This document shows positions 1,759 through 41,437 of a stretch of 64,000 nucleotides of DNA, in pieces. The notes below the pieces were generated by a model. The model had not been told where the DNA came from and searched no databases. It worked only from the letters and a program-made list of their open reading frames with translations. Position 1 is the stretch's first letter; every line of letters starts with the position of its first letter. Source of the DNA: Caldicellulosiruptor danielii (lineage in GTDB: Bacteria > Bacillota > Thermoanaerobacteria > Caldicellulosiruptorales > Caldicellulosiruptoraceae); the NCBI RefSeq assembly GCF_034343125.1, contig NZ_CP139957.1:1635001-1699000 (forward strand), written 5' to 3'. Position numbers and translations under genes: made by a program.

Positions 1759-3789
<2,031 letters not shown>

Positions 3790-3823
3790 TCACCCTCTTT
3801 GTTTACAATTTTAAAATTTAGGT

Positions 3824-4924
3824 TTAGTAAATGCTTGTAAAGCCTGTATTGATTTTGGACTTGTAAATCTTCAGTTCATCTTTTTTCTTAAAATTCTCAA
3901 AAAGATTGTAAACTATATCCACAAACACCTTCTCGCTCTCATAATGTCCAAGCTCTATTATGCTCATGGATAGCGACTTTGCCAGCAATATCCCGTGGTG
4001 ACCAACTTCCCCTGTGATAAGACAGTCTGCACCTTTGAAATATGCATCCTTTATAAGATCCTTACCAGAACCACTGACAATGGCTATCTTTTTAAAAGCA
4101 TCTTTTTGAATACTTGCTTTTACAAAATCAATATTTAGTTTCTGTTTTAACTCCAATATAAGATCTTTTGCCAAAACCTCTCTCTCTCCAACAACTCCTA
4201 AACTTTCATACGATATTTCATTTTCAAGCCGGTATATGTCATATGCGACCTCTTCATAGGGATGAGCTTTTAACATCGCTCTTATCACACTTTTAAGCTT
4301 CTCTTCAGGTACTATGCTCTCAAGCCTCACCTCTTTAACCCTTTCAAGTCTTCCCACCTGTCCCAAAAAAGGTTTTGCACCTTCTTGAGGCTTGAAACTA
4401 CCTTCACCTTCTACTGCAAAAAAGCAATGGCTGTATTTTCCAACAAAGCCCGCACCTTCATTTGCCATTGCCTCTAACACATTTTGAACATAGTCTACTG
4501 GAACATACACAACAACTTTAAAATAACCATTTTCTTGCTTGATGCTCAAACCTTCAATGTTTTCAAGACCTATGAGATTGGCTAGCCAGTGGTTTATACC
4601 GTGTTTTGAGACGTCTGCACTTGTGTGAGCAGAGTATATATTTATGCTATTTTTGATAGCATCTATGATAATCCTTCCTTCTGTTGTGTCATCTTTAATG
4701 GTTTTGATTCCCTGAAAAATAAGGGGATGATGAGAAATTATAAGCTTTGATCCAAGTTCAACTGCTTCTTTTATAACCTCTTCTGTTATATCAACACAGA
4801 TTAAAACCGAATCTACTTTGTCCGAATAACTTCCAACCTGAAGACCGCAGTTGTCCCATTCATATGAGAGTTTTTTGGGGAAATAGGTTTCTATAAACGA
4901 AATTATCTCATGAATGCTTACCAC
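3824..4924 (-). CDS. Nif3-like dinuclear metal centre protein
   Basis: 366 residues, the long Nif3/YqfO form with a PII-like insert (about residues 130-230) between the two halves of the Nif3 fold. Metal-ligand motifs are visible: ISHHPLIF near residue 65 and GEVGHHG near residue 308. The family is often described as a GTP cyclohydrolase I type 2-like protein, but its reaction is not settled. The start is GTG at 4924, inside the end of the trmK gene (7-nt overlap), with GAGGA nine bases upstream. The pair trmK-nif3 is a conserved Firmicute neighbourhood (yqfN-yqfO in Bacillus), so the genes are surely cotranscribed. Confidence 0.95.
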   Translation of the reverse strand: MVSIHEIISFIETYFPKKLSYEWDNCGLQVGSYSDKVDSVLICVDITEEVIKEAVELGSKLIISHHPLIFQGIKTIKDDTTEGRIIIDAIKNSINIYSAHTSADVSKHGINHWLANLIGLENIEGLSIKQENGYFKVVVYVPVDYVQNVLEAMANEGAGFVGKYSHCFFAVEGEGSFKPQEGAKPFLGQVGRLERVKEVRLESIVPEEKLKSVIRAMLKAHPYEEVAYDIYRLENEISYESLGVVGEREVLAKDLILELKQKLNIDFVKASIQKDAFKKIAIVSGSGKDLIKDAYFKGADCLITGEVGHHGILLAKSLSMSIIELGHYESEKVFVDIVYNLFENFKKKDELKIYKSKINTGFTSIY

Positions 4925-5682: not shown

Positions 5683-5835
5683 ATGAAAAAGCCAAGTGAT
5701 ATTGAAAGAATAACTGAAACATTTCAAAACTATTTGAACCTTAGCAAGGAAGATAGTCAAAGCAATCTTAAAACAACCATAGAAAATCAAAATACACCAA
5801 TTTTTAAAAAATTAGAAGAAAAAAAGAGGTTGTGA
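5683..5835 (+). CDS. Small hypothetical protein (50 aa)
   Basis: A 50-codon plus-strand frame beginning MKKPSDIERITETFQNYL, rich in charged residues and without membrane segments. AGGA lies nine bases before the ATG, and a TATAAT-like box sits at about 5629-5634. The frame could also be read from a TTG at 5638, but the ATG has the better ribosome site. Its last codons form the left arm of the hairpin at 5823-5854. I do not recognise the protein, and conservation would have to show that it is made. Confidence 0.4.
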   Translation: MKKPSDIERITETFQNYLNLSKEDSQSNLKTTIENQNTPIFKKLEEKKRL

Positions 5836-5854
5836 GAACTTACACAACCTCTTT
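5823..5854. terminator. Bidirectional terminator between convergent genes
   Basis: A 12-bp perfect stem (AAAGAGGTTGTG / CACAACCTCTTT) with an 8-nt loop. It is followed by a T-rich run on the plus strand and preceded by an A-rich run, so it can act both ways. Both arms are coding: the left arm holds the end of the small plus-strand frame, and the right arm encodes the last residues (KEVV) of the minus-strand toroid protein. Confidence 0.8.
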
Positions 5855-6922
5855 GTTCTTTTCTTCACTCTTAACAAGCTCTTCGATGAAAAGCCGTGCT
5901 AAGAGGTAACAAATGGTAGACTCTGCACCTTGGTTCTGGTTAATACCATCCTCTTCTATACCATCTCTGCATCCTCCTGTTTTTTCATCATACAGAGGCC
6001 TTTTGTGAATATTTTCGCCCAAAAACCACTTGAAAGCTTTGAGAGCTTTTTCTTTGTATTCTTTTTCTTCAGTAATTTTATAAGCCTCAGTATAGGCAAT
6101 CACACAGTCACATGCATCAATTGGTTGCTCATCAAAATAAGGACGTTCCTTTCCTTTTTCATACCATCCTCTGTTTCCAATGACTCTCAATACACCATTT
6201 TCAAAAAGAATTCCAGACAAAAAATCAAGGGCTTCTTTTGCAACCTTTAAATACTTTTCTTTTTCTGTAACAGCAAAAGCTCTAAACAAAGCATAGGGAA
6301 TTATTGCATTGGCATATGTGAGCTTGTCAGAAAACCATTTCCAGTTCTCATCTGAGTGTTTGTGGTAAAAGTTTAAAAGTTTTTCAGAAAGAGCTTCTAA
6401 GTACATTTTTGCTTCGCTTGAAAACTCTTTTATGTCGTGCAGTATTGAAAGTGCAATCACTGAATATGCGATGCTAATTGGATATGTGAGGTGCAAAACA
6501 TTTCTGAGTGAGCGTTTTAACATCACATACGCAAGCTCTTTAATGGAGTTATCAAGTATCTCAGAGCTGTAAACATACGAAAGAGCAATTAAAGACCTTG
6601 CAAAACAGTCTTCTGTGCCTTTTTCGTCAAGAAACACCCTTGAATAATTCATTAAGTTTCTGAAAAAGCCATCCTCAGTGTAAGCATTGTATAAAAACGC
6701 CATGTATCTGTAAACAAGGTCAAGGTAAGATTTGTCTCCCGTCTTTTCATATAGTCTTAAAGTAACAATCAGCGCTCTTGCATTATCATCTGTGGTATAT
6801 CCTTCTTTGTAGTTTGGAACTGAGAATTTAGCGTGCTGCAAGATTCCTGTCGAGTCTGTCATTCTAAAAAGATGTTTTGTGTTCAAAGAAGGAAGGGCAA
6901 TCCTTTTTGTTCCTCTTCTCAT
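5840..6922 (-). CDS. Alpha/alpha-toroid glycosidase-like protein
   Basis: 360 residues made of repeating helical hairpins with aromatic and acidic patches (for example GYTTDDNARAL near residue 42 and DEQPIDACD near 264), which looks like the (alpha/alpha)6 toroid of six-hairpin glycosidases. There is no signal peptide, so it is cytoplasmic. It overlaps the GT4 gene by four bases (ATGA), so the two products are made together. Such a pair is often found near GH130 mannoside phosphorylases, which suggests work on an intracellular or cell-envelope oligosaccharide. The substrate and catalytic residues are not identifiable from here. Confidence 0.75.
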   Translation of the reverse strand: MRRGTKRIALPSLNTKHLFRMTDSTGILQHAKFSVPNYKEGYTTDDNARALIVTLRLYEKTGDKSYLDLVYRYMAFLYNAYTEDGFFRNLMNYSRVFLDEKGTEDCFARSLIALSYVYSSEILDNSIKELAYVMLKRSLRNVLHLTYPISIAYSVIALSILHDIKEFSSEAKMYLEALSEKLLNFYHKHSDENWKWFSDKLTYANAIIPYALFRAFAVTEKEKYLKVAKEALDFLSGILFENGVLRVIGNRGWYEKGKERPYFDEQPIDACDCVIAYTEAYKITEEKEYKEKALKAFKWFLGENIHKRPLYDEKTGGCRDGIEEDGINQNQGAESTICYLLARLFIEELVKSEEKNKEVV

Positions 6923-8079
6923 GCTATCACCCCTACCTTCTTGTTTATCTCAACAACATCATAGAATATATCTATCATTCTCTTTGCAACATTGTGCCAG
7001 TACATCTCTTTGCCAACTTCTGCGGTCTTTCTTTCAATCTCTTTCCTCAGATTCTCATCTCTCAAGAGCATCAATATGCCATCTGCAATCGACTGGGCAT
7101 CTTCAAACTCTACAAGAACACCTCTGCCCTCCGAGAGCATCTCTTGAGCATAAGTATATGGCGTCGAAACTATAGCCTTGCCAGAACCAATAGCATATGC
7201 GAGCGTCCCTGATACTGCCTGCTCCCTCCCTATGTAAGGAGTCAGGTAAATATCGCTCAACCGTAAATACTCCATTATTTCTACTTTTGTTAGATATTTG
7301 TCGACAAATTGGACATTGTTTTCTAACTTTAATTCTTTTACCATATTCATAAGTTTTTCTCTGTACTCTTCGCCTTTTATTCTTTTAATATTTGGATGTG
7401 TTTGACCCAAAATCAGATACACAGCCTCTGGAAATCCTTTTCTTACCCTGTTCATTGCTTCAATCGCATACTCTAAACCCTTGCCAGGGCTAATAAGCCC
7501 AAACGTGGATATCACTTTTCTACCTTTTAATCCATACTTTTCTTTTAAAGTCTCTCTATCTTCAAGTTCCATATATGGTACACCATGGTGAACAATTTCA
7601 ATCTTTTCTTCTTCTATGTCATACACTTCCATGAGAATATCCCTGGTCGTTTTAGCCATTGTAATGACCTTGAAACTTGCATCCGCCAACTTTTTCAGTA
7701 TCTCAAATTGTTTTGCAGTTGGATTTTTCAAAACTGTGTGGAAGGTTGTAATAATTGGTTTTTTGATAAGCTTTACAAATGGAATTATATAATCTCCATC
7801 CTCCCCGCCAAATATTCCATATTCATGCTCAATTACCACAACATCAATGTCAGACATGTTAATAAGATTAGCCGCTTTTACATAATTCGAAAATTTATCT
7901 TGATTAATATCATACAGTACTCTATTGTCATAAATATGTTTGTCTTTGCTCAGAGAAATTATATAACAACGTCTTACATCATTATATTTTTCAATTGCAT
8001 TTACCAAATCCTGTGTAAAAGTGGCAATACCACACTCTCTCGGAGGATATGTGCTTACAAATACTGGCTTTATCGCCAC
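6919..8079 (-). CDS. Glycosyltransferase family 4 protein
   Basis: 386 residues, GT-B fold. The N-terminal half opens with a STYPPRECGIATFT loop typical of GT4 enzymes. The C-terminal donor domain contains STFGLISPGKGLEYAIEA and the acidic E-x7-E type region near VSGTLAYAIGSGKAIVSTPY. It should transfer a sugar from an activated donor in the cytoplasm. The GTG start at 8079 has AAGGAGG seven bases upstream. A consensus sigma-A promoter lies at 8245-8272, leaving an untranslated leader of about 160 nt. The product is coupled to the downstream toroid protein. Confidence 0.9.
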   Translation of the reverse strand: MAIKPVFVSTYPPRECGIATFTQDLVNAIEKYNDVRRCYIISLSKDKHIYDNRVLYDINQDKFSNYVKAANLINMSDIDVVVIEHEYGIFGGEDGDYIIPFVKLIKKPIITTFHTVLKNPTAKQFEILKKLADASFKVITMAKTTRDILMEVYDIEEEKIEIVHHGVPYMELEDRETLKEKYGLKGRKVISTFGLISPGKGLEYAIEAMNRVRKGFPEAVYLILGQTHPNIKRIKGEEYREKLMNMVKELKLENNVQFVDKYLTKVEIMEYLRLSDIYLTPYIGREQAVSGTLAYAIGSGKAIVSTPYTYAQEMLSEGRGVLVEFEDAQSIADGILMLLRDENLRKEIERKTAEVGKEMYWHNVAKRMIDIFYDVVEINKKVGVIA

Positions 8080-30882: not shown

Positions 30883-31260
30883 TTATTTGTTTTTCTGCTG
30901 TCTGGCAATCTTGATTGCCTCAGCCCAGGTATTTCGCATCTCCTCAACAATTTCAAGCGCTTCCTGTAAGTATTTCTTATCTTTTTTAAGATTTGCCTGA
31001 ATAAGCCACCTGTATACAAAATCATATAGGCTCATGAGATTTTTAGAAATCTCATAACTCATATCAAGTGTTGACATGAGCTCTGTAATGATATTCTCTG
31101 CCTTGATTATATTTTCATTTGCCCTGTCAAGCTTTTTTTCATCAATTGCCTGCATGGCAAGTTTTATAAATCTTATACACCCGTCATAAAGCATAAGCGT
31201 CAGTTCCTCAGGCGGCTTTGTCATTATTATCTCTTCCTGATATCTTGCTGCTGCGTCCAT
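30883..31260 (-). CDS. fliS: Flagellar export chaperone FliS
   Basis: 125 residues, with RYQEEIIMTKPPEELTLMLY and then the helical bundle with GCIRFIKLAMQAI, typical of FliS. It binds the flagellin C-terminus and keeps it unfolded until export. It follows fliD by 40 nt. Confidence 0.96.
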   Translation of the reverse strand: MDAAARYQEEIIMTKPPEELTLMLYDGCIRFIKLAMQAIDEKKLDRANENIIKAENIITELMSTLDMSYEISKNLMSLYDFVYRWLIQANLKKDKKYLQEALEIVEEMRNTWAEAIKIARQQKNK

Positions 31261-31300
31261 GTATTTTCCCCCTTGTCAATTTTTGTTTATATCTCTTTTA

Positions 31301-33166
31301 TTATCTACCACTGAACTGCTGAGAAAGCCATGAACTTTGAGTGTTCATCTGAGCAATTAGCCTCTCGAGCTGTGTAAACTGCCTGTAGTATCTATCTTCA
31401 ATCTGCTTGAGTCTATCTTGCTCAGCATTCATCTGGTCTATAATTGTTCTCAGCTGTTTTCCTATCGCACTATTTGGGTCATATGAACTTGTAAAATATG
31501 GTTTGCCGGCTTTGTCGTATATCTTCTTAAGAGTATCATTGGCAATATTGTAAATGCGCTGCAAAATCCCGTCATCTTCATTAGACTTAGAATCAGAACC
31601 GGTTAAAGTAAACAGTTTAACAAATGCATCAAAATTATTTGCTATTGCATCTTTTAGCTTACTCTCATCTTTTATATAAATCTTCCCTTCTTTGCTTTCA
31701 AAATAGCTAAAAGTCTCTATTCCTGCCTCTGAAATTGTATCCAGATTGGATGGAAGCCCGGGAACCTGCTTGTAAAGATAATATCTGACGTTGTCTAAAA
31801 AACCAGATAAGATTGAATCACCATACAATAGTCCTTTTTTTGCAGCATCTTCCCATTTTTGAATATCAGTATCTTTCATCTGAGACTTTTGCTCATCTGT
31901 CAGAGGTAAATAATCTCTGTTTCGTTTTTCTGTTATTTTACTATAAATCTTGCTGACAAGGTCGTTGTATTTGTTTATAAATTCTTTGATATTGTTTACA
32001 ACAGCATCTACATCTTTTGAGATGGAAAATGACTTTAATCCACTCGTTATACTTTTTAATCCTATGCTCATTCCATAAAGATTGAAAGTATTTGATGAAG
32101 AATATAAATAAGAAGACAAATTTCCAAAAGGGTCTTCTATGCTTATTACAGAATCCTGACCAACTGCTTTGTATTCTCCACTCCCTATAGTTGATGAGGA
32201 TATTGAAGTCAAATCTGTATTTGAAGAATCAAGGTTTTGTGAAGATGTTGTTATAATATACAATTTATCCTCTTGCGCGCTATATGAAGCCTTTATACCA
32301 GTATCTGCTAAATTTTTATTAATAGCTATTGCTATTTGATATCCGACTTTATCTTTGTCCTGTAATGTATTAGGGTCTAAATTTACATTCACAGTAGTAT
32401 CCTTAATTTTGATGGTAAAATTAGGATTTGAGATATTTTGGTCCAATACAAAAGAATAAACTTTATTATCTGGGGTTAAATCTGCCGAATTTATAGAAAT
32501 ACTAACATTTGACCCTGTTTTGTTAGAAGTTAAAATAAGTTTGTCTAATGTTGAATCGTAATAAGCTTTAAGACCAACACTACTAAACTGTTTATTTACT
32601 TCTTCTGCAACCTTCGAACCAAAATTTGACTCTGTAATACTTGTATCTAAATTAATTGTAATTGTACGCGATTGCGGAGCACTTATTCCATCACTAAATT
32701 CTATCCCTAAAGATATAGATGTTTTTGAGTTTTGTTTTGCTTCATTATATTTCATTTTTAATTCCGAAAACATTACCACAGGTGAAGCCGCCAACTGTTT
32801 CACATCAATTTGATAATTCCCCTCTAAGACATTTGCCGAACCTGTAACATCAATATACCCATTATCCACAGCTTCACCGCTTGTTTTGTATTTTACAAAA
32901 TTGCTCGAAAGTTTTAGATTAAATATATAATCTTTAAAGCTGGAAATTGCATTTGCCATATCCATATAATCTTGGCGCTGCCACTCAAGTAGCTGCTTTT
33001 GCTGATAAAGTTTGTTGTATTTTGTCTTTTCTATGCTCATCAAACCCTGTATGATAGAGTCTGTATCAAGTCCGCTTGCAAGCCCACCAATTCTGGTGTA
33101 ATACTTATATGTCGAATACGGATTTGTCGAAGTTGTAGAACTTGTTGAATTGACATTCATACCCAT
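31301..33166 (-). CDS. fliD: Flagellar filament cap FliD
   Basis: 621 residues. The N-terminal domain RIGGLASGLDTDSIIQGLM (about 26-44) and C-terminal coiled coil (RLKQIEDRYYRQFTQLERLI) are those of FliD/HAP2; the middle is a variable beta-rich region. The cap folds flagellin at the filament tip. A second ATG at 33160 is as well placed after AAAGGTGG as the first at 33166. It is in the operon flaG-fliD-fliS. Confidence 0.97.
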   Translation of the reverse strand: MGMNVNSTSSTTSTNPYSTYKYYTRIGGLASGLDTDSIIQGLMSIEKTKYNKLYQQKQLLEWQRQDYMDMANAISSFKDYIFNLKLSSNFVKYKTSGEAVDNGYIDVTGSANVLEGNYQIDVKQLAASPVVMFSELKMKYNEAKQNSKTSISLGIEFSDGISAPQSRTITINLDTSITESNFGSKVAEEVNKQFSSVGLKAYYDSTLDKLILTSNKTGSNVSISINSADLTPDNKVYSFVLDQNISNPNFTIKIKDTTVNVNLDPNTLQDKDKVGYQIAIAINKNLADTGIKASYSAQEDKLYIITTSSQNLDSSNTDLTSISSSTIGSGEYKAVGQDSVISIEDPFGNLSSYLYSSSNTFNLYGMSIGLKSITSGLKSFSISKDVDAVVNNIKEFINKYNDLVSKIYSKITEKRNRDYLPLTDEQKSQMKDTDIQKWEDAAKKGLLYGDSILSGFLDNVRYYLYKQVPGLPSNLDTISEAGIETFSYFESKEGKIYIKDESKLKDAIANNFDAFVKLFTLTGSDSKSNEDDGILQRIYNIANDTLKKIYDKAGKPYFTSSYDPNSAIGKQLRTIIDQMNAEQDRLKQIEDRYYRQFTQLERLIAQMNTQSSWLSQQFSGR

Positions 33167-33175
33167 TCACCACCT

Positions 33176-33580
33176 TTACTTTCGCTCATCAACAAATATG
33201 CCTGCAAGCTCCCACAACTTTGCAATTATGTCCAAAATCTTCTCTGGCGGAATTTCACGAATGAGCTCATTTGTCTCTTTGTCATATACCTTCACAACTA
33301 TCTCATGGGTCTCTTTGTGTATTGAAAACTCAAGCCTTGTATATTTTGCCTCAAAAGCTTTGTTTGCCTGATTTATCATCTTTATGAGAGTGTCTTCATC
33401 TATTTCTTTTTTGTTATTTTTATCTGCTAATTTATCATAAACCTCATCCTTATTTATGCCCTTTTCACCCTGAAGGTTAATCTCTGCATTCTCAGGTTTC
33501 ATTTTACTTTCTTGAAATCTTGGCACTGCATTTGATATATCAATGGTCTTGACACCAATACCATCAACAACCATTTTCAA
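33176..33580 (-). CDS. flaG: FlaG-family flagellar protein
   Basis: 134 residues. The C-terminal FlaG domain is clear: LEFSIHKETHEIVVKVYDKE, then IREIPPEKILDIIAKL. The first half is polar and variable. FlaG affects filament length. First gene of the operon, with a sigma-28 promoter upstream. Confidence 0.92.
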   Translation of the reverse strand: MKMVVDGIGVKTIDISNAVPRFQESKMKPENAEINLQGEKGINKDEVYDKLADKNNKKEIDEDTLIKMINQANKAFEAKYTRLEFSIHKETHEIVVKVYDKETNELIREIPPEKILDIIAKLWELAGIFVDERK

Positions 33581-33611
33581 ATTCCCTCACTTTGTAGTAT
33601 TTCTTTATATA

Positions 33612-33639
33612 TTATCGGTGGAAAAAAGAAAAAAGTTTA
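33612..33639 (-). promoter_or_regulatory. Sigma-28 (SigD) promoter of flaG-fliD-fliS
   Basis: On the minus strand TAAA (33639-33636) and ACCGATAA (33619-33612) are 16 bases apart, matching the flagellar sigma consensus TAAA-N15/16-GCCGATAA. The flagellin promoter in this window has the same spacing. Confidence 0.8.
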
Positions 33640-33674
33640 ATAAGTAAACTGAGACAAAACACAATTTTAATTGT

Positions 33675-34322
33675 TTACATTTCCTCTTCACTTTCAACCG
33701 GTGGAAGTAAATTGATAAACCTTGCCAAGCATAGCAATGTCATAAATAAACCTGTGATGTTTTCAAAAAATATCAAATTTGCAATAGTTGAATTTTTACT
33801 ACCTGCTATTTGTTCTATTTCATCTGCATTGAATATTGTAACATTTAAAATATTTGCACGTATAAAATCCCAAACAGAACTATCATCAGGAAAGTTTCCG
33901 CCTATCTTTAAAAGACAAATCATCATTACTGAATACCACAGCATAATTTCAACAAAATTATGAAGAAGCAATATAATTGTCCTCGTTACAGATTTTATTT
34001 TATATTCTCTTTTATTTTTCTTAGTTCTTATTCTATCAAAAAATAAAACATTTACCTGATACACTATTATTTCAAAAACTCTCAAAACTCCATAAATTAA
34101 AATTATCCAAAAGATAGCTTTAAAACGGGAATTTATGTAATATGTTGAAACTACAGCCAGAAAAGAAAGAAGTATGTTTCCCAATACCCATGCATCAACT
34201 AAAAAATAGCCCTTATTTTTTGCAATCTTTCTAACCCAGTAAAATATTGATATTTTACTTAAGTAATAAAAAATTCTTTCCCAAAAAGTGACTATAAAGC
34301 TGTCATTATAATCTTTGCTCAT
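33675..34322 (-). CDS. Hypothetical multi-pass membrane protein
   Basis: 215 residues from ATG 34322 (GAGGT seven bases upstream) or 218 from GTG 34331. About four hydrophobic segments are visible (for example FWIILIYGVLRVFEIIVY and IILLLHNFVEIMLWYSVMMICLL). Residues after about 135 include ICLLKIGG and a short acidic tail. No known family. Its first 122 bases lie in the 506-bp repeat copied to 36672-37177. Confidence 0.7.
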   Translation of the reverse strand: MSKDYNDSFIVTFWERIFYYLSKISIFYWVRKIAKNKGYFLVDAWVLGNILLSFLAVVSTYYINSRFKAIFWIILIYGVLRVFEIIVYQVNVLFFDRIRTKKNKREYKIKSVTRTIILLLHNFVEIMLWYSVMMICLLKIGGNFPDDSSVWDFIRANILNVTIFNADEIEQIAGSKNSTIANLIFFENITGLFMTLLCLARFINLLPPVESEEEM

Positions 34323-34706
34323 GTGTGACACCTCATATATTCAGTTATTAGTAGCTATGGTTTTAAATAATACATTACAAAATTTTTATAATAATGATTG
34401 ATTCTAGTATATTTACTTGCATATTAAAAAATTTCAAATTAAAAACTTTAATTCATATATTTGTATAATTAAATGATTTTTAGGTTAAACTCCAAGGAAT
34501 TTTATTTTCTTTTGAGATCTTTTCGTATTCTTCTATCTGTTGTAATGAATAGTCATACATGTCAATTTCTTTATTATAATAGTAATGTTTATACCATTCT
34601 ATCGTCTTATAAATGGTCTTCTGTATATCTAAAATGGGTTTCCAACCCAAATATGATTTTGCTTTACTAGTGTCTAATTTTAACAAATCTGTCTCGTAAA
34701 AATTAT
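34201..34706. repeat. 506-bp direct repeat, left copy
   Basis: Identical to 36672-37177 as far as I compared line by line. It holds the 5' part of the membrane-protein gene, the intergenic region and the 3' end of rfbG. It lies directly against the left end of the IS element. The first base before it (34200 T versus 36671 G) and the first after it (34707 T versus 37178 C) differ, which sets its limits. Confidence 0.9.
34480..34706 (-). pseudogene. rfbG 3' fragment (copy made by IS insertion)
   Basis: Repeats the last 75 codons of the CDP-glucose 4,6-dehydratase (LKLDTSKAKSYLGWKPILDI onward to the stop) and is cut by the IS at 34707. It has no start of its own. The intact gene is at 36951-38057. 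Confidence 0.9.
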
Positions 34707-36671
34707 TTTGACTTTGTCAGTTGGAAATTTAAAAAGCTTGATAGTACTGGGATTGGAAATAAAAGGGTGGGGAATTTGTCACTACACTATTTCCTCACCC
34801 CATATTCTTCTAATGCCTCCTCTATCATCATTAAATTCTTCGGCGGCTCTATCTTCATAACCTGTAATATCTCCTTCGCTTCTTGCTCTATCTTCGCCTT
34901 CAGTAAAATCTTCCTCCCTTCTACATCTATTTGCATAAAATTCATCGAATTTATTGCTTCCTTTATTTTCTCACTACTCATATCTTTTCCTTTCTCCCTT
35001 AATTTAAATTCCAATGTCCTTTCTAACAGAAATGCCAAAAAACAAACCACAAAATGTCCTCTTATTCGCTTCTCGGTCCAATGAAAAATGGGTCTTACCT
35101 CTAATGAACTTTTCATCACTCTAAATGATTCTTCTATTTTCCATAAATCATGGTATGCTCTTAAAATCTCTTCAGCTGTCAAGTCTAATTTACTCGTTTG
35201 AATTGCATAATACCCATCAAATCTTTCATCTTCCTTTATCGCTTCTTCATTAAGTTGATACTCCTCTTTACTGTTGCTATTTACCCGTTTTAAAAACTTT
35301 TTTCCTCCTCTTTTCTCTAAAGCCCTGATTTTACTCGGCTCTCTCAGCAGCTCTTTTGCCTTCTCTATAAACCTCTCTCTATCCTGCTTGTCTTTTTTAG
35401 CTCTCTTGCTTGAATAGGTTATCACCATCTTCTCTTCTAACTTGTACTTTTTGCCATTCTCATCTTTTACATAGTTCTCATAATCTATTACCTTAAACTT
35501 AAATCCTTCTCCATATATACTTTCAAAATCTTTATTTGTTAAATATCTATAACCATCATTGTTAAAAACTTCTTCTAAAACTTCTTTACTCATGCTCTTT
35601 AGCCTTGAGGCCACAATGTAATCGTATCCTGCTTCCTTTATCATCTTAAGATTCAACTTACTGTTTATACCTTTATCTGCTACTATTACCACTTTGTCTA
35701 TGCAAAATTTCTCCTTCAGCTTCTCCAAAACTTTTATAACAGTTTTGCTGTCTATAGTGTTACCAGCAAAAAGTTCATATCCAACCGGTCTTCCTTCTTT
35801 GTCTATCAACATCCCCATTACTACTTGAACTTCATTGACTTTGTTGTCCTTGCTAAATCCATATTTTCTTAGCTCATCAGCTTTTACACTCTCAAAGTAA
35901 AAAGTTGTTACATCATAAAACACAACATCTACCTGGAAATTAAACAATGTCCTGTTCTTTTGATAAAGATAAACTTCTAATTCTTCCTTTACATCTGCTA
36001 ATATATCTAAACCCCTGTAAAGATGATTCAAATCAATTTCTTGCAATGGAAAACCAAAGTATTGATGTCTCTTTTCATATGTTCTTAATTTGCTCACTGG
36101 CTGCAGCAGTCTTTGAACTGTCATTAAAAAACTTACAATGTCAATGTCAAATTTAATTTTGTATCTTCTGTAGCAGTATTCTTCTAAGAATTTATCTATT
36201 CTAAAAAGTTCCCACAGTTTGCGATAGACAATATATCCATAGTTTAATATTGTTCCTTCAGAAACATTATCTTCTGTCAGTTCAATGGTGGCATTTTTAT
36301 TTTTTTCTTTAGCAAATACTTCATAAAGTTTGTCTATGACATTTACAAAAGACTCATTATTTTTCAGCAGATCAAGTCTTCCGAGGTTAAGAAGGACTTT
36401 TTGTTTTATTTTGCCATTTTCTCTATAATTATGGACGATTTTAACATACTCATATCCACCAGCTTTAGTAATTTTAACAAACAATAGAGATCACCCAAGT
36501 ATCTTTTTGAGATATTATACTACATAAATATCAGAAAGTCAACTAATATCAGGATATAAATGGAAATAATTTGTCCCTACATGACAAAAAATTTTTTATT
36601 TTTTTAGTCCGCAAACCCGCATAAATTAAGACTTTTACATTTTTTGGACTTCAGAAACTGACAAAGTCAAG
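34707..36671 (-). mobile_element. IS1634-family insertion sequence
   Basis: A 1.97-kb element. Ends are inverted repeats: left TTGACTTTGTCAGTT from 34708, right AACTGACAAAGTCAA to 36670, 15 bp perfect. A single long transposase gene fills it. It is flanked by perfect 506-bp direct repeats, much longer than the usual target duplication of a few bases. The founder of the family is reported for just such long, variable direct repeats. Confidence 0.9.
34787..36484 (-). CDS. IS1634-family transposase (IS4-like DDE)
   Basis: 565 residues. The N-terminal KITKAGGYEYVKIVHNYRE block is followed by a long all-alpha part and the DDE region: DVVFYDVTTFYFES with the first aspartate (near residue 190), VVIVADKGINSK with the second (near 275), and DLWKIEESFRVMKSSLEVRP with the glutamate (near 470). 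It is apparently intact from TTG 36484 to the stop, so the element may still move. It catalyses cut-and-paste or copy events at the 15-bp inverted repeats. Confidence 0.93.
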   Translation of the reverse strand: MFVKITKAGGYEYVKIVHNYRENGKIKQKVLLNLGRLDLLKNNESFVNVIDKLYEVFAKEKNKNATIELTEDNVSEGTILNYGYIVYRKLWELFRIDKFLEEYCYRRYKIKFDIDIVSFLMTVQRLLQPVSKLRTYEKRHQYFGFPLQEIDLNHLYRGLDILADVKEELEVYLYQKNRTLFNFQVDVVFYDVTTFYFESVKADELRKYGFSKDNKVNEVQVVMGMLIDKEGRPVGYELFAGNTIDSKTVIKVLEKLKEKFCIDKVVIVADKGINSKLNLKMIKEAGYDYIVASRLKSMSKEVLEEVFNNDGYRYLTNKDFESIYGEGFKFKVIDYENYVKDENGKKYKLEEKMVITYSSKRAKKDKQDRERFIEKAKELLREPSKIRALEKRGGKKFLKRVNSNSKEEYQLNEEAIKEDERFDGYYAIQTSKLDLTAEEILRAYHDLWKIEESFRVMKSSLEVRPIFHWTEKRIRGHFVVCFLAFLLERTLEFKLREKGKDMSSEKIKEAINSMNFMQIDVEGRKILLKAKIEQEAKEILQVMKIEPPKNLMMIEEALEEYGVRK

Positions 36672-36793
36672 AAAAAATAGCCCTTATTTTTTGCAATCTT
36701 TCTAACCCAGTAAAATATTGATATTTTACTTAAGTAATAAAAAATTCTTTCCCAAAAAGTGACTATAAAGCTGTCATTATAATCTTTGCTCAT
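36672..36793 (-). pseudogene. Membrane-protein gene 5' fragment (copy made by IS insertion)
   Basis: Repeats the first 40 codons of the membrane-protein gene at 33675-34322 (MSKDYNDSFIVTFWERIF), then runs into the IS at 36671. The ribosome site is copied too, so a short truncated peptide could be made. Confidence 0.85.
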
Positions 36794-37177
36794 GTGTGAC
36801 ACCTCATATATTCAGTTATTAGTAGCTATGGTTTTAAATAATACATTACAAAATTTTTATAATAATGATTGATTCTAGTATATTTACTTGCATATTAAAA
36901 AATTTCAAATTAAAAACTTTAATTCATATATTTGTATAATTAAATGATTTTTAGGTTAAACTCCAAGGAATTTTATTTTCTTTTGAGATCTTTTCGTATT
37001 CTTCTATCTGTTGTAATGAATAGTCATACATGTCAATTTCTTTATTATAATAGTAATGTTTATACCATTCTATCGTCTTATAAATGGTCTTCTGTATATC
37101 TAAAATGGGTTTCCAACCCAAATATGATTTTGCTTTACTAGTGTCTAATTTTAACAAATCTGTCTCGTAAAAATTAT
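36672..37177. repeat. 506-bp direct repeat, right copy
   Basis: Identical to 34201-34706. It lies at the right end of the IS and carries the native 3' end of rfbG. The 466-bp stretch 36485-36950 without an intact gene is made of the IS right end, the truncated gene copy and intergenic DNA of this repeat. Confidence 0.9.
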
Positions 37178-38057
37178 CTTTCGGATTATCTATTTCATAA
37201 CTTCCTCCACCCCATACTTTTATAACTAAGTTTACTATTTCTTCTACAGTTAATATGTTTCCTTCCTCAGGTCCAAAATTCCAAGCACTATTAAAACTTT
37301 TATTATCGCTCAGCATATTAGCACCCAACCATAAATAACCTGCCAAAGGTTCCAAAATATACTGCCATGGTCTTATTGCCTTGGGCTTTCTGATTTTTAT
37401 TACTTTGGCTTCAGATAAAGCTTTGATACAATCAGGTATCAATCTTTCGTCTGACCAATCTCCTCCACCAATTACATTGCCTGCTCTTACAGTAGCTAAC
37501 GCTTTACCTATTTGATTATAGTAGCTGTTTCGATATGCAGCTACAATAAGTTCACAACAGCTTTTACTTGAACTATAAGGATCAAAACCACCTAAAGGAT
37601 CATTTTCTCTATATCCATATATCCATTCTTTATTTTCATAACATTTGTCTGAAGTTACAACAATGACAGCTTTTATACTATCAATTTTTCTTGCTGCTTC
37701 CAAAACATTTACAGTCCCCATTATATTCGTTTCATATGTTGAAATTGGTTCTCTATACGCCAGTCTAACTAACGGCTGAGCAGCTAAATGAAATACAATT
37801 TCCGGTTTGCTCTTTTTCATAGCCTTATATAAGCTTTCATAATCTCTTATATCTCCAAAAATACATTCTGATTTTATACTCAACTTGCATATATCAAACA
37901 TATTAGGTACTGTATATGGTGGCAATGCATACCCAACAACGTTAGCATTCAATTTATTAAGCCAAATTGTCAGCCATGAACCCTTAAATCCAGTATTGCC
38001 TGTTATAAAAACGTTTCTATATTTATATATTCCTTTAAATGGCTCATTTTTTATCAT
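36951..38057 (-). CDS. rfbG: CDP-glucose 4,6-dehydratase
   Basis: 368 residues of extended SDR fold: FITGNTGFKGSWLTIWL (residues 12-28), VTSDKCYENKEW, and the active-site YSSSK near residue 165. The GGGDW and RPWQYILEPLAGYLWL motifs are typical of RfbG. It makes CDP-4-keto-6-deoxyglucose from the product of RfbF. It overlaps the upstream epimerase gene by 14 nt. It lies in the flagellin-side sugar island. Confidence 0.95.
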   Translation of the reverse strand: MIKNEPFKGIYKYRNVFITGNTGFKGSWLTIWLNKLNANVVGYALPPYTVPNMFDICKLSIKSECIFGDIRDYESLYKAMKKSKPEIVFHLAAQPLVRLAYREPISTYETNIMGTVNVLEAARKIDSIKAVIVVTSDKCYENKEWIYGYRENDPLGGFDPYSSSKSCCELIVAAYRNSYYNQIGKALATVRAGNVIGGGDWSDERLIPDCIKALSEAKVIKIRKPKAIRPWQYILEPLAGYLWLGANMLSDNKSFNSAWNFGPEEGNILTVEEIVNLVIKVWGGGSYEIDNPKDNFYETDLLKLDTSKAKSYLGWKPILDIQKTIYKTIEWYKHYYYNKEIDMYDYSLQQIEEYEKISKENKIPWSLT

Positions 38058-38961
38058 CCATATCCTCTCCGTCTAACCTTAACATAAGTCTTATACCTTC
38101 TTCTAACGAAATTTTTGGTTGCCAACCTGGTAAATTCTCATACACTTTTATTGGAACAAAAACTTCTCGTTTTCTATATTCTCTTCCACCCCATATAGCA
38201 TTTATGTTTCTTCCCGAGACCTTTTGAAATAAGTTAACCAATTCTTTCAAAGTAATAAAATTAGATGAAGACAAAGTATATTTATAATGCCCTGAAGTTT
38301 GTAAATTACCAATATACTCAAATGCCTTAATAAATCCATCAATAATGTCATCAATATAAGTTAAATTTAACAATTGTTCACCCGGTGATATAAGCAAATT
38401 CGCACCTGTTTTACTGTAGCGATTCAACAAACTTAATATTTTGCCTCTGTCATCACTTGGTCCATATGTATCATAAAGAATTAAGGTGATAACAGTAAAA
38501 TCATGAACTTTTACATAATATTCAAGAATTTTTTCAAAAGCTTCTTTTGTAGCTGCATAAAGGCAAACAGGGTTATATATTTCATTGTTATAGTTTTGCC
38601 ATGACGTTCCAACATTTATTAATTTTTTTGTATTGCTAAGCCTCATGGCTTCTAATATATAAGTCCCAAATTTAATATTACTATCAATTAACTGTTCAAT
38701 ATGCTCAGGTAAATGTTCAGCAACATAGAATGAGGCTAAATGAAATACAACTTCAAAACAATTATCTTTTAAATAATCTGTTAGTTTTTTTAAATCGTAA
38801 TCATACTCAAAAATTTGGATTCTGTCTAAATAATCTCTCAACTTATCCAACTTGGATCTTTTTCTAATAATTATATGAACATCAAAACCAAGATCTACTA
38901 AGCGCTTTGTGAGATTAGAGCCAATATATCCTGTTGCCCCAGTTATTAAAATTTTTCTCAT
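38044..38961 (-). CDS. NAD-dependent sugar epimerase/reductase (RfbJ-like)
   Basis: 305 residues of extended SDR fold: KILITGATGYIGSNL at the start, VFHLASFYV near 73, and the catalytic YAATK near residue 140. It resembles the 4-ketoreductases that finish CDP-linked deoxysugars. Substrate inferred from its neighbours rfbG, rfbF and the 3,5-epimerase. It overlaps rfbG, so the two are translated together. Confidence 0.85.
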   Translation of the reverse strand: MRKILITGATGYIGSNLTKRLVDLGFDVHIIIRKRSKLDKLRDYLDRIQIFEYDYDLKKLTDYLKDNCFEVVFHLASFYVAEHLPEHIEQLIDSNIKFGTYILEAMRLSNTKKLINVGTSWQNYNNEIYNPVCLYAATKEAFEKILEYYVKVHDFTVITLILYDTYGPSDDRGKILSLLNRYSKTGANLLISPGEQLLNLTYIDDIIDGFIKAFEYIGNLQTSGHYKYTLSSSNFITLKELVNLFQKVSGRNINAIWGGREYRKREVFVPIKVYENLPGWQPKISLEEGIRLMLRLDGEDMDDKK

Positions 38962-39011
38962 AAAATCACCTTTTTGGCTTTATTAATTTTATAAATAATA
39001 TTCCTACATCC

Positions 39012-39788
39012 TTAGCTCCAAACTTTCCACGGTGCCTTACCTTCATTCCATAGTTTTTCTAAGTTCAATTTATCCCTCATTGTATCCATACACTGCCAAA
39101 AGCCTTTGTGCTTATATGCTACAATTTGCCTGTCATTAGCCAGCTTTATTAAAGTTTCTCTTTCAAAAGAAGTCATATCCCCCTCTATATAATCAATAAC
39201 CTTAGGTTCCAATACAAAAAAGCCACCGTTTATCCAAACATCCTGTGTTTTTGGTTTTTCTACAAATTCCAAAACTGTTGAATCTTCACTTAATCCAAGA
39301 ACACCATAACGACCTGTAGGTTGTACTGCTGTAACCGTAGCAAGTTTACCATGTGAAAAATGAAAATCCACTAATTCTTTAATGTTTACATCCGAAACTC
39401 CATCTCCATATGTCATTAAAAAAGTCTCATTGTTCAAATAATTTTTGATTCTTTTTAATCGACCACCTGTTTGAGTATCAATTCCTGTATTTACAAGAGT
39501 AACTTTCCATGGTTCTACATCTTCAGATGATACAATCTCTATATTATTATTTGTAAAATCAAAAGTAACATCTGAGGCATGTAACAAATAATTAGCAAAA
39601 TATTCTTTTATTACATAACCTTTATATCCCAAACATATTATAAAATCGTTAAATCCATAATGTGAATATATTTTCATTATATGCCATAATATAGGTCTTT
39701 CGCCAATTTCAATCATTGGCTTTGGTTTTAAGTACGACTCTTCACTGATTCTTGTTCCATAACCGCCTGCTAATATAACTACTTTCAT
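39012..39788 (-). CDS. rfbF: Glucose-1-phosphate cytidylyltransferase
   Basis: 258 residues. The nucleotidyl-transfer loop VILAGGYGTRISEESYLKPK (residues 4-23) with a lysine and the YGDGVSDVNI metal site near residue 128 are diagnostic for RfbF. It makes CDP-glucose, the entry to CDP-6-deoxysugars. 9 nt after the 3,5-epimerase. Confidence 0.96.
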   Translation of the reverse strand: MKVVILAGGYGTRISEESYLKPKPMIEIGERPILWHIMKIYSHYGFNDFIICLGYKGYVIKEYFANYLLHASDVTFDFTNNNIEIVSSEDVEPWKVTLVNTGIDTQTGGRLKRIKNYLNNETFLMTYGDGVSDVNIKELVDFHFSHGKLATVTAVQPTGRYGVLGLSEDSTVLEFVEKPKTQDVWINGGFFVLEPKVIDYIEGDMTSFERETLIKLANDRQIVAYKHKGFWQCMDTMRDKLNLEKLWNEGKAPWKVWS

Positions 39789-39797
39789 AACAAGCCA

Positions 39798-40355
39798 TCA
39801 CCTTTTCCTTTTATTTAATGAAATTCTTATAGAATCATTAAATGGTGGTAAATTCATATCTTTGTCAGATAATATCGGGTTTTTTATTGGCCACGGAATA
39901 CTAAGTGAATCCCACCTAATTCCACCTTCATGCTCTGGTGAGTAAATTTCTGACATATTATATAACACTATAGTATCATCTTCTAAAACTAAATATCCAT
40001 GTGCAAATCCTACAGGCACATAAACAATGTTATTCTTCTTAGAATCAATATGAAAACATTCAAACTTACCATATGTAGGTGAATTTTCTCGTATATCAAC
40101 TACAACATCAAATATGCTACCTCTTAAGCAAGATACTAATTTTGCCTGACAAAATGGAGGTTTTTGATAATGCAAACCACGAAGAACATTCTTATGCGAT
40201 TTTACACATAGCACCTCTTTTAACACATCTTTAATTCCTAAACTTTTAAATATCTCACTGTGATATAGCTTGATAGATGTTCCACGATGATCATCAAATA
40301 TATTTGGTATAATTTCTACACAACCGGGTAACTTTGTTTTATTTATTGTATACAT
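39798..40355 (-). CDS. rfbC: dTDP-4-dehydrorhamnose 3,5-epimerase-like protein
   Basis: 185 residues from ATG 40355, after GGTGGTGA; the upstream in-frame start at 40385 is less likely. It has GLHYQKPPFCQAKLV with the catalytic histidine, VDIRENSPTYGK and VPVGFAHGYLVLEDD, which define the RmlC cupin family. Next to CDP-sugar genes it probably acts on CDP-4-keto-6-deoxyglucose; no dTDP-sugar genes lie here, so the symbol states family only. Confidence 0.88.
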   Translation of the reverse strand: MYTINKTKLPGCVEIIPNIFDDHRGTSIKLYHSEIFKSLGIKDVLKEVLCVKSHKNVLRGLHYQKPPFCQAKLVSCLRGSIFDVVVDIRENSPTYGKFECFHIDSKKNNIVYVPVGFAHGYLVLEDDTIVLYNMSEIYSPEHEGGIRWDSLSIPWPIKNPILSDKDMNLPPFNDSIRISLNKRKR

Positions 40356-40420
40356 TTCACCACCGCCACTATTTTTATTTAACAATCGAAAAGTATTAGA
40401 ACTAACATATTTTTTGTAGA

Positions 40421-41437
40421 TTATTCAAATAAGGATTTTAACTTTTCAGCATAATCATCAAGTACATCTTCTTTGTACATTGCATATCTATATTGTTTAC
40501 ATCTTGAGCAAACATCAGAAGCATTTTTTACTCCATCGAGCATCTTTCTTTGGAATTCTTTAAATTTTTTACTATACCATATATCAACAATATTTTTCTC
40601 AGATACGTTGCCTAAAATGATTGGATAAGATGCTGAACAACATGGAACTACGTTACCATCAGGATTAACTTGTAACATATAAAATGGTTGTGGACAAATC
40701 TTAGAATTCAATATCAGACTACCATTTTGCGTTACATTAAGTTCTCTGCCATTAACCATACTTTGATAATCTATTTCATCAACAGCTGGAGTTAAATATT
40801 CTATAGCAATAAAGTCTGCAATCTCACCAAATATATCAAAAAATTGCTTTTTTTCTTTTTCATTCTCTAATGCACAATCTATTATCTTTATGTATACCTT
40901 TGTATTCCCCCTGTTCTTATAAAAGAAAGTCAACTTCTTAATCAATGATTTAAAGTCTATGTCAACACCACATATATCCTTATATTTTGCTTCAGACAAA
41001 CCTTCAATTGAAATTCTCAATTTATCCAATCCCGCCTCAACTAAAGCTAAAGACACCTTTTCATTAAGTAAGTATCCATTAGTTACTATGTCGACGCTGT
41101 GAGCAATATCTTTTTCTTTTGCATATTTCACCATCTCAGCTATGTTGGGATGAAGCAGTGGTTCCCCCCATCCTGCAAATCTGAGCATTTTTATCTTCTT
41201 ATTGAACAAAGTCATATCATCTATACATTTTTTATATAATTCAATATCCATAAAAGTCTCATTAGACATATAACCGTGTTTATCTTTTGGTAATGAATGA
41301 ACACAATATTTACATCTAAAATTACATGCATAAACTGGAAATATTTGAATTAAAAATGGTGTATCTAATGGTAGCACTTCTCCTAAGACAGTTCTTTCTC
41401 CTCCTGGAGTTATACCTTTTACAATTTTATTCTTCAT
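40421..41437 (-). CDS. Radical SAM/SPASM protein 1 of 3
   Basis: 338 residues. The radical SAM cluster cysteines are Cys38, Cys42 and Cys45 (CNFRCKYC). The C-terminal SPASM-type region has a CPQPF cysteine, a VPCC pair and a CSRC pair, which can hold one or two more iron-sulfur clusters. Such proteins modify peptides or sugars by radical chemistry. It is a paralogue of the two genes upstream (41472 and 42500), with the same TPF and CNF layout. Target unknown; probably part of flagellin glycan or protein modification. Confidence 0.88.
   Translation of the reverse strand: MKNKIVKGITPGGERTVLGEVLPLDTPFLIQIFPVYACNFRCKYCVHSLPKDKHGYMSNETFMDIELYKKCIDDMTLFNKKIKMLRFAGWGEPLLHPNIAEMVKYAKEKDIAHSVDIVTNGYLLNEKVSLALVEAGLDKLRISIEGLSEAKYKDICGVDIDFKSLIKKLTFFYKNRGNTKVYIKIIDCALENEKEKKQFFDIFGEIADFIAIEYLTPAVDEIDYQSMVNGRELNVTQNGSLILNSKICPQPFYMLQVNPDGNVVPCCSASYPIILGNVSEKNIVDIWYSKKFKEFQRKMLDGVKNASDVCSRCKQYRYAMYKEDVLDDYAEKLKSLFE

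Follow-up and report, generated by a model that had tools for sequence, protein, structure and literature searches.

A clade of IS1634-family insertion sequences with long, variable target duplications, seen from a 506-bp repeat in Caldicellulosiruptor danielii

Fixed, short target duplications are the hallmark of DDE transposition, since both ends of the element act in one complex; Tn5, for example, makes a 9-bp duplication of fixed length. In the IS1634 family of insertion sequences (ISs), whose members are 1500–2000 bp long, AT-rich duplications of 5–6 bp are the rule, and IS1549 (Mycobacterium smegmatis) and IS1634 itself (Mycoplasma mycoides) were described as exceptions with repeats of 8–514 bp, for which no mechanistic model was given (De Palmenaer and colleagues, PMC2266710). 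No later model for the long IS1634 and IS1549 repeats was found in the literature searched. Other family members include ISGka5 of Geobacillus kaustophilus, whose observed transposition gave 6-bp repeats (PMC8024623), and an Acidiphilium element whose transposase binds the beta clamp, a link to replication (PMC4549789). Here we analyse a 64,000-nucleotide stretch of Caldicellulosiruptor danielii DNA (contig NZ_CP139957.1, positions 1,635,001 to 1,699,000; hereafter the window), in which an IS1634-family element lies between two 506-bp direct repeats, together with a survey of related elements that makes long, variable repeats the trait of an entire clade.

Like IS1634 and IS1549, the window element belongs to the family and carries a long repeat, and taken alone it adds one new case to a known oddity. 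A preliminary description of the window had reported a 1.97-kb element with 15-bp inverted ends between identical 506-bp copies, with rfbG and a membrane-protein gene left whole at the outer copies and truncated in the inner fragments; the element measures 1965 bp, and the gene coordinates agree with the rest (Table 1). Its statement that the founder IS1634 is described as making long, variable repeats is borne out by the published range cited above. The match between the two copies breaks off immediately at either border, and an exact 506-bp repeat abutting both IS ends is far beyond chance. The repeat reaches from the 3' end of rfbG, through the intergenic DNA, into the 5' end of the membrane-protein gene, and therefore a whole gene stands at each outer copy. 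Compared by description only, IS1634 and IS1549 differ from the present case in that the trait here spans a whole clade, extends to 1362 bp, and can be resolved into the target choice of each end. What is new from the survey is that a fixed stagger has been lost throughout the clade, some of whose sub-branches target promoters.

Elements and their flanks were taken from 61 relatives, 398 genomes of the phylum, and plasmids, giving about 200 IS1634-family copies (cited below, with their genomes, by L and G numbers), and the repeat was measured wherever the ends of a copy could be defined. Repeats of 13–1362 bp (median 125), nearly all exact, flank 94 of 121 full copies in what we call the long-repeat clade; the remaining set of family copies, the short clade, has repeats of 5–6 bp. 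A sister element, with a transposase 66% identical to that of the window, occurs in five genomes of the genus; long repeats with borders exactly at the IS ends flank 39 of its 43 copies. In a maximum-likelihood tree of 48 transposases (a 43-row tree was also made), a single branch with support of 100/100 divides the 28 long from the 20 short lineages, and repeat type changes once, against an average of 15.6 changes with shuffled labels. The window transposase is represented there by the identical L010, which groups with L048 and L080 within the 28-lineage clade (100/100). An IS1634-type element of Mycoplasmopsis with a 108-bp repeat (L263) also falls within the long clade, on a long branch, and such branches (Mycoplasmopsis L263, L255, L283) make the exact places of these elements unsure. 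Plasmid relatives from Geobacillus (L267, 5–6 bp) and Acidiphilium (L264) belong to the short clade, and the 6-bp repeats of ISGka5 are like those of that clade. Both types can share one genome: in G103, the repeat is 1129 bp at a long-clade copy and about 5 bp at short-clade copies, and in G363 the long-clade values are 81, 183 and 1362 bp, beside 5–6 bp for the short clade. Host factors alone therefore do not set repeat length.

That the repeat is target DNA duplicated at insertion is well supported. At L092, a sister site, the joined flanks with one copy of the 478-bp repeat align uninterrupted to eight other genomes of the genus; the segment is thus single-copy and contiguous where the IS is absent, and insertion creates the repeat. 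At the window site, the closest relative, G006, lacks the IS and carries the first 135 bp once, past which point the neighbouring DNA differs, and for the 589-bp repeat of L048 no homologous site was found in the genus. Two repeat-less copies in G020 (L089 and L091) regain repeats of 175 and 276 bp when their flanks are swapped, the signature of later IS-IS recombination. As the two copies lie in opposite orientations (G020:C1:269173 and 2793771), a reciprocal exchange of flanks implies a large chromosomal inversion. Flank exchange was rejected as the cause of all repeat-less copies; the clear reciprocal pair is L089/L091 only.

The preliminary description had attributed the 506-bp copies to a staggered or replicative insertion. 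Target duplication holds, on the strength of the L092 empty site and the 39 of 43 sister copies, but the range of the lengths (13–1362 bp), their seemingly exponential distribution and their lack of helical phase favour two uncoupled strand transfers over a stagger set by a single complex. Lengths at the sister element fit an exponential distribution (n = 39, mean 167, Monte Carlo p = 0.72), although a lognormal fits too, and no 10–11 bp phase of the kind that a 10.5-bp helical repeat would give was detected in repeat lengths.

The two IS ends choose their target sites separately. In sub-branch A of the long clade, to which the window element belongs, both ends face outward onto A(A/G)AA; in sub-branches B, C and D, it is ATTATA or TTATA that lies before the downstream end, and at the other end preference is slight. 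This downstream-end motif is the sigma-A -10 box, at whose edge the end sits. When promoters were scored on reconstructed B–D target sites, matches ending at the junction (offset 0 or +1) occurred 15 times among 39 sites, where about 0.4 would be expected, and on one strand only. Three comparisons with matched -10-like hexamers from that DNA favour the junction boxes: their -35 boxes at 16–18 bp spacing are better (p = 1.2e-4), at least five of six -35 positions match in 7/28 against 1.8% (p = 4e-7), and a gene start that has a ribosome-binding site follows downstream in 14/28 against 21% (p = 6e-4). Because the repeat runs upstream from the -10 box, the gene keeps its -10 and -35 boxes and upstream DNA if the repeat is longer than about 35 bp, as most B–D repeats are. 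An open reading frame is broken outright by 1 of 39 B–D insertions, compared with 13 of 40 sub-branch A insertions. For B and C combined, exact repeats below 30 bp are absent where 6.5 were expected (p = 7e-4), a shortage that would fit either a need for the -35 region or occlusion by RNA polymerase. Sub-branch A sites show no clear excess of promoters, and the window element, as a member of that sub-branch, is not placed with the promoter-targeting B–D. Intrinsic terminators were considered as sub-branch A targets and rejected, as there is no excess of hairpins at the sites.

Orientation relative to replication also separates the groups. With fork direction taken from dnaA as the origin, 36 of 49 sub-branch A elements are co-oriented with the fork (p = 0.0014), at 18/24 sites whose flanking genes run with the fork, 7/9 where they run against it and 11/15 where they are mixed. 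Elements of B–D point against the fork (60/70, p = 8e-10), a bias that promoter direction explains as well as replication does. Short-clade elements have no orientation bias (32/56).

We consider it likely that the 506-bp repeat is a target duplication made by the insertion itself, through uncoupled strand transfers that are common to the clade, with copying of the stretch between them. In such a scheme, the two ends would attack the target without a fixed short stagger: one 3' end would first join one target strand at a preferred short motif (a half-site), the freed target 3' end would be extended or a fork would pass, and the other end would later join the opposite strand, as a rule on the side that gives a duplication. 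The distance between the joinings would be a memoryless waiting length, from tens to over a thousand bases, and copying of the open stretch, by strand displacement or by a fork, would leave two identical copies. In B–D, the first end would most likely join the downstream edge of the -10 box, which would leave the gene with a complete promoter. The preference for A(A/G)AA in sub-branch A applies to both ends, and orientation there tracks the replication fork. LINE-1 type retrotransposons, in which two uncoupled target cuts lead to duplications of variable length, work in a similar way but are unrelated, and no reverse transcriptase is present here.

More tentatively, the coupling of the two strand transfers may have been lost in the clade in such a way that the first joining occurs at transiently melted DNA and repair or fork synthesis of random length precedes the second; this is a version of events that we entertain without favouring it. 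The melted site would be the promoter -10 box in B–D and probably replicating DNA in sub-branch A. If so, insertions would tend to duplicate rather than destroy a promoter or gene border, allowing harmless insertion at active promoters. Landing at a promoter that is then duplicated, as in B–D, would represent a new route to harmless insertion near genes, and would provide genomes with second promoter copies and long direct repeats.

Several points weigh against uncoupled transfer. The evidence comes from finished insertions, and the order of events and the strand displacement are deduced from the outcome preserved in genomes. The fork bias relies on dnaA as the origin and on an assumed opposite terminus, and a C-terminal beta-clamp motif is present in 1 of 28 long-clade transposases, below the shuffled expectation. 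Repeats are lacking in 27 of the 121 full long-clade copies, of which two are explained, as the exchanged pair; the others may be old, recombined, or deletions of reverse geometry. In addition, one short-clade copy (L275) has a 181-bp repeat (3553–3733 and 5812–5992, one mismatch), whereas 6 bp is the length at four sisters of it in that genome; long repeats can therefore arise otherwise, for example by two insertions and recombination.

Among the alternatives, the one that survives best, although we think it unlikely, places both joinings at a replication fork: one end would join the leading-strand template and the other the single-stranded lagging template behind it, so that repeat length mirrors the single-stranded gap and duplications are the sole outcome. 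It would suit the sub-branch A orientation, which tracks the fork irrespective of local genes while the short clade is unbiased, as well as repeat lengths that lie within roughly one Okazaki fragment and have no helical phase. However, the B–D bias, with 10 of 70 elements oriented with the fork, is explained as well by promoter direction. The family precedent for a replication link, the clamp-binding Acidiphilium transposase (PMC4549789), carries a type of C-terminal clamp motif that is missing from the long-clade transposases, and thus a clamp-based link to the fork is unsupported.

Another route would have the IS land twice in the ordinary way, at neighbouring positions on sister chromosomes and with a 5–6 bp duplication each time; IS-IS recombination would then yield a single IS with the intervening segment on either side, and hence the same anatomy at a single site. 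We regard this route as improbable for the clade even though IS-IS recombination does occur here (L089/L091) and the route could account for the lone 181-bp repeat of L275: almost every copy would require two nearby insertions, including those of low-copy elements, and 39 of 43 copies of one element are long, yet the high-copy short-clade elements in G363 mostly are not. Finally, insertion of the IS into the junction of a pre-existing 506-bp tandem duplication, which the preliminary description had raised as the outcome that would overturn its reading, gains only from the failure to find a full empty site for the window among relatives, and is very improbable given that repeat borders coincide with IS ends at 94 sites and that the L092 segment, single-copy in eight genomes, refutes it at that sister site.

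The transposase of the window element is assigned to the IS1634 family by NF033559 (415.1 bits against a cut-off of 100) and carries the Pfam domain DDE_Tnp_1; the IS length also falls within the family range. Membership is further defined by DDE residues with an IS4-like motif in which the R of YREK is usually missing, and here D191, D270, E451 and K458 are invariant and YHDLWKIEESFRVMK shows L at the expected R. Of the family end form C-----YT, CTTGACTT fits at one end, while TTTGACTT at the other has T for C. The two terminal inverted repeats share 15 terminal bases and differ in one outer base, because of which the borders of repeat and IS are uncertain by 1 bp. An AlphaFold model (pLDDT 83) was used in a fold search, where the nearest structure was the transposase of Tn5, an IS4-type DDE enzyme whose duplication is fixed where that of the present clade is variable; a sequence search against solved structures gave no match. 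D228, S358 and E452 (window numbering) are among the residues that the long clade conserves and the short clade seldom has, its own residues at these positions being mostly T, N and R; E452 immediately follows the catalytic E451. With a few conserved residues distinguishing the clades (window positions 228, 358 and 452), the long clade, with its free stagger, and its close 5–6 bp sister clade in the same hosts form a natural comparison through which a curiosity of 1998–1999 becomes testable.

Table 1. Coordinates of the IS1634-family element, its flanking repeats and the adjoining genes in the window.
Feature	Position	Strand	Remarks
Left copy of 506-bp direct repeat (target duplication)	34201..34706	no strand	identical to 36672-37177
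Right copy of 506-bp direct repeat	36672..37177	no strand	identical to 34201-34706
IS1634-family insertion sequence	34707..36671	-	1965 bp; sub-branch A of long-repeat clade
Terminal inverted repeat, left	34707..34722	+	TTTGACTTTGTCAGTT; end downstream of transposase gene
Terminal inverted repeat, right	36656..36671	-	CTTGACTTTGTCAGTT; end upstream of transposase gene
Transposase gene	34787..36484	-	565 aa; TTG start; DDE residues D191, D270, E451; predicted Tn5-like fold
Membrane-protein gene, whole	33675..34331	-	218 aa; 5' part within left repeat copy
CDP-glucose 4,6-dehydratase gene (rfbG, TIGR02622), whole	36951..38057	-	3' part within right repeat copy
Truncated 3' copy of rfbG	34480..34706	-	within left repeat
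Truncated 5' copy of membrane-protein gene	36672..36802	-	within right repeat

The host genome contains three full copies of the IS (the window copy, L010 and L011). Comparison of repeat length among them, a check proposed in the preliminary description, gives 506 bp, about 67–89 bp and about 1.6–2.2 kb (diverged), respectively, and so again long and variable values. The IS of L010 is identical to that of the window, and its repeat copies differ in the length of a poly-T tract (L010 3950–4000; G000:C1:1766474-1766524), with about 38–40 T in one and 17 T in the other; the tract length therefore changed at or after insertion. In L011, the IS is 91% identical to the window IS and the repeat is old: the direct repeat (1791–4000 and 5965–7537, 90–96% identical) duplicates a 328-aa gene, and a 208-aa gene is absent from one copy. 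Solitary IS end fragments, the remains of lost copies, are present at L012 (3001–3091, 91 bp) and L013 (3001–3061, 61 bp), the latter adjoining a terminator-like inverted repeat.

Composite arrangements were also encountered in the survey. L053 is a nested site with a newer IS inside an older one, so that its repeat length is 448 or 235 bp, depending on the reading. In G011, L053 and L059 have in common a 213-bp piece of the IS joined to a full copy, and at L059 the resulting 2197-bp composite has its own 54-bp repeat, as if it had moved as a unit.

In its wider setting (window positions 30883–41437), the IS has flagellar genes (fliS, fliD, flaG) on one side and, on the other, a CDP-hexose sugar cluster comprising rfbF, rfbG and an rmlC-type epimerase, with a radical SAM gene. 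This region is probably a flagellin-modification or surface-sugar island that varies among relatives.
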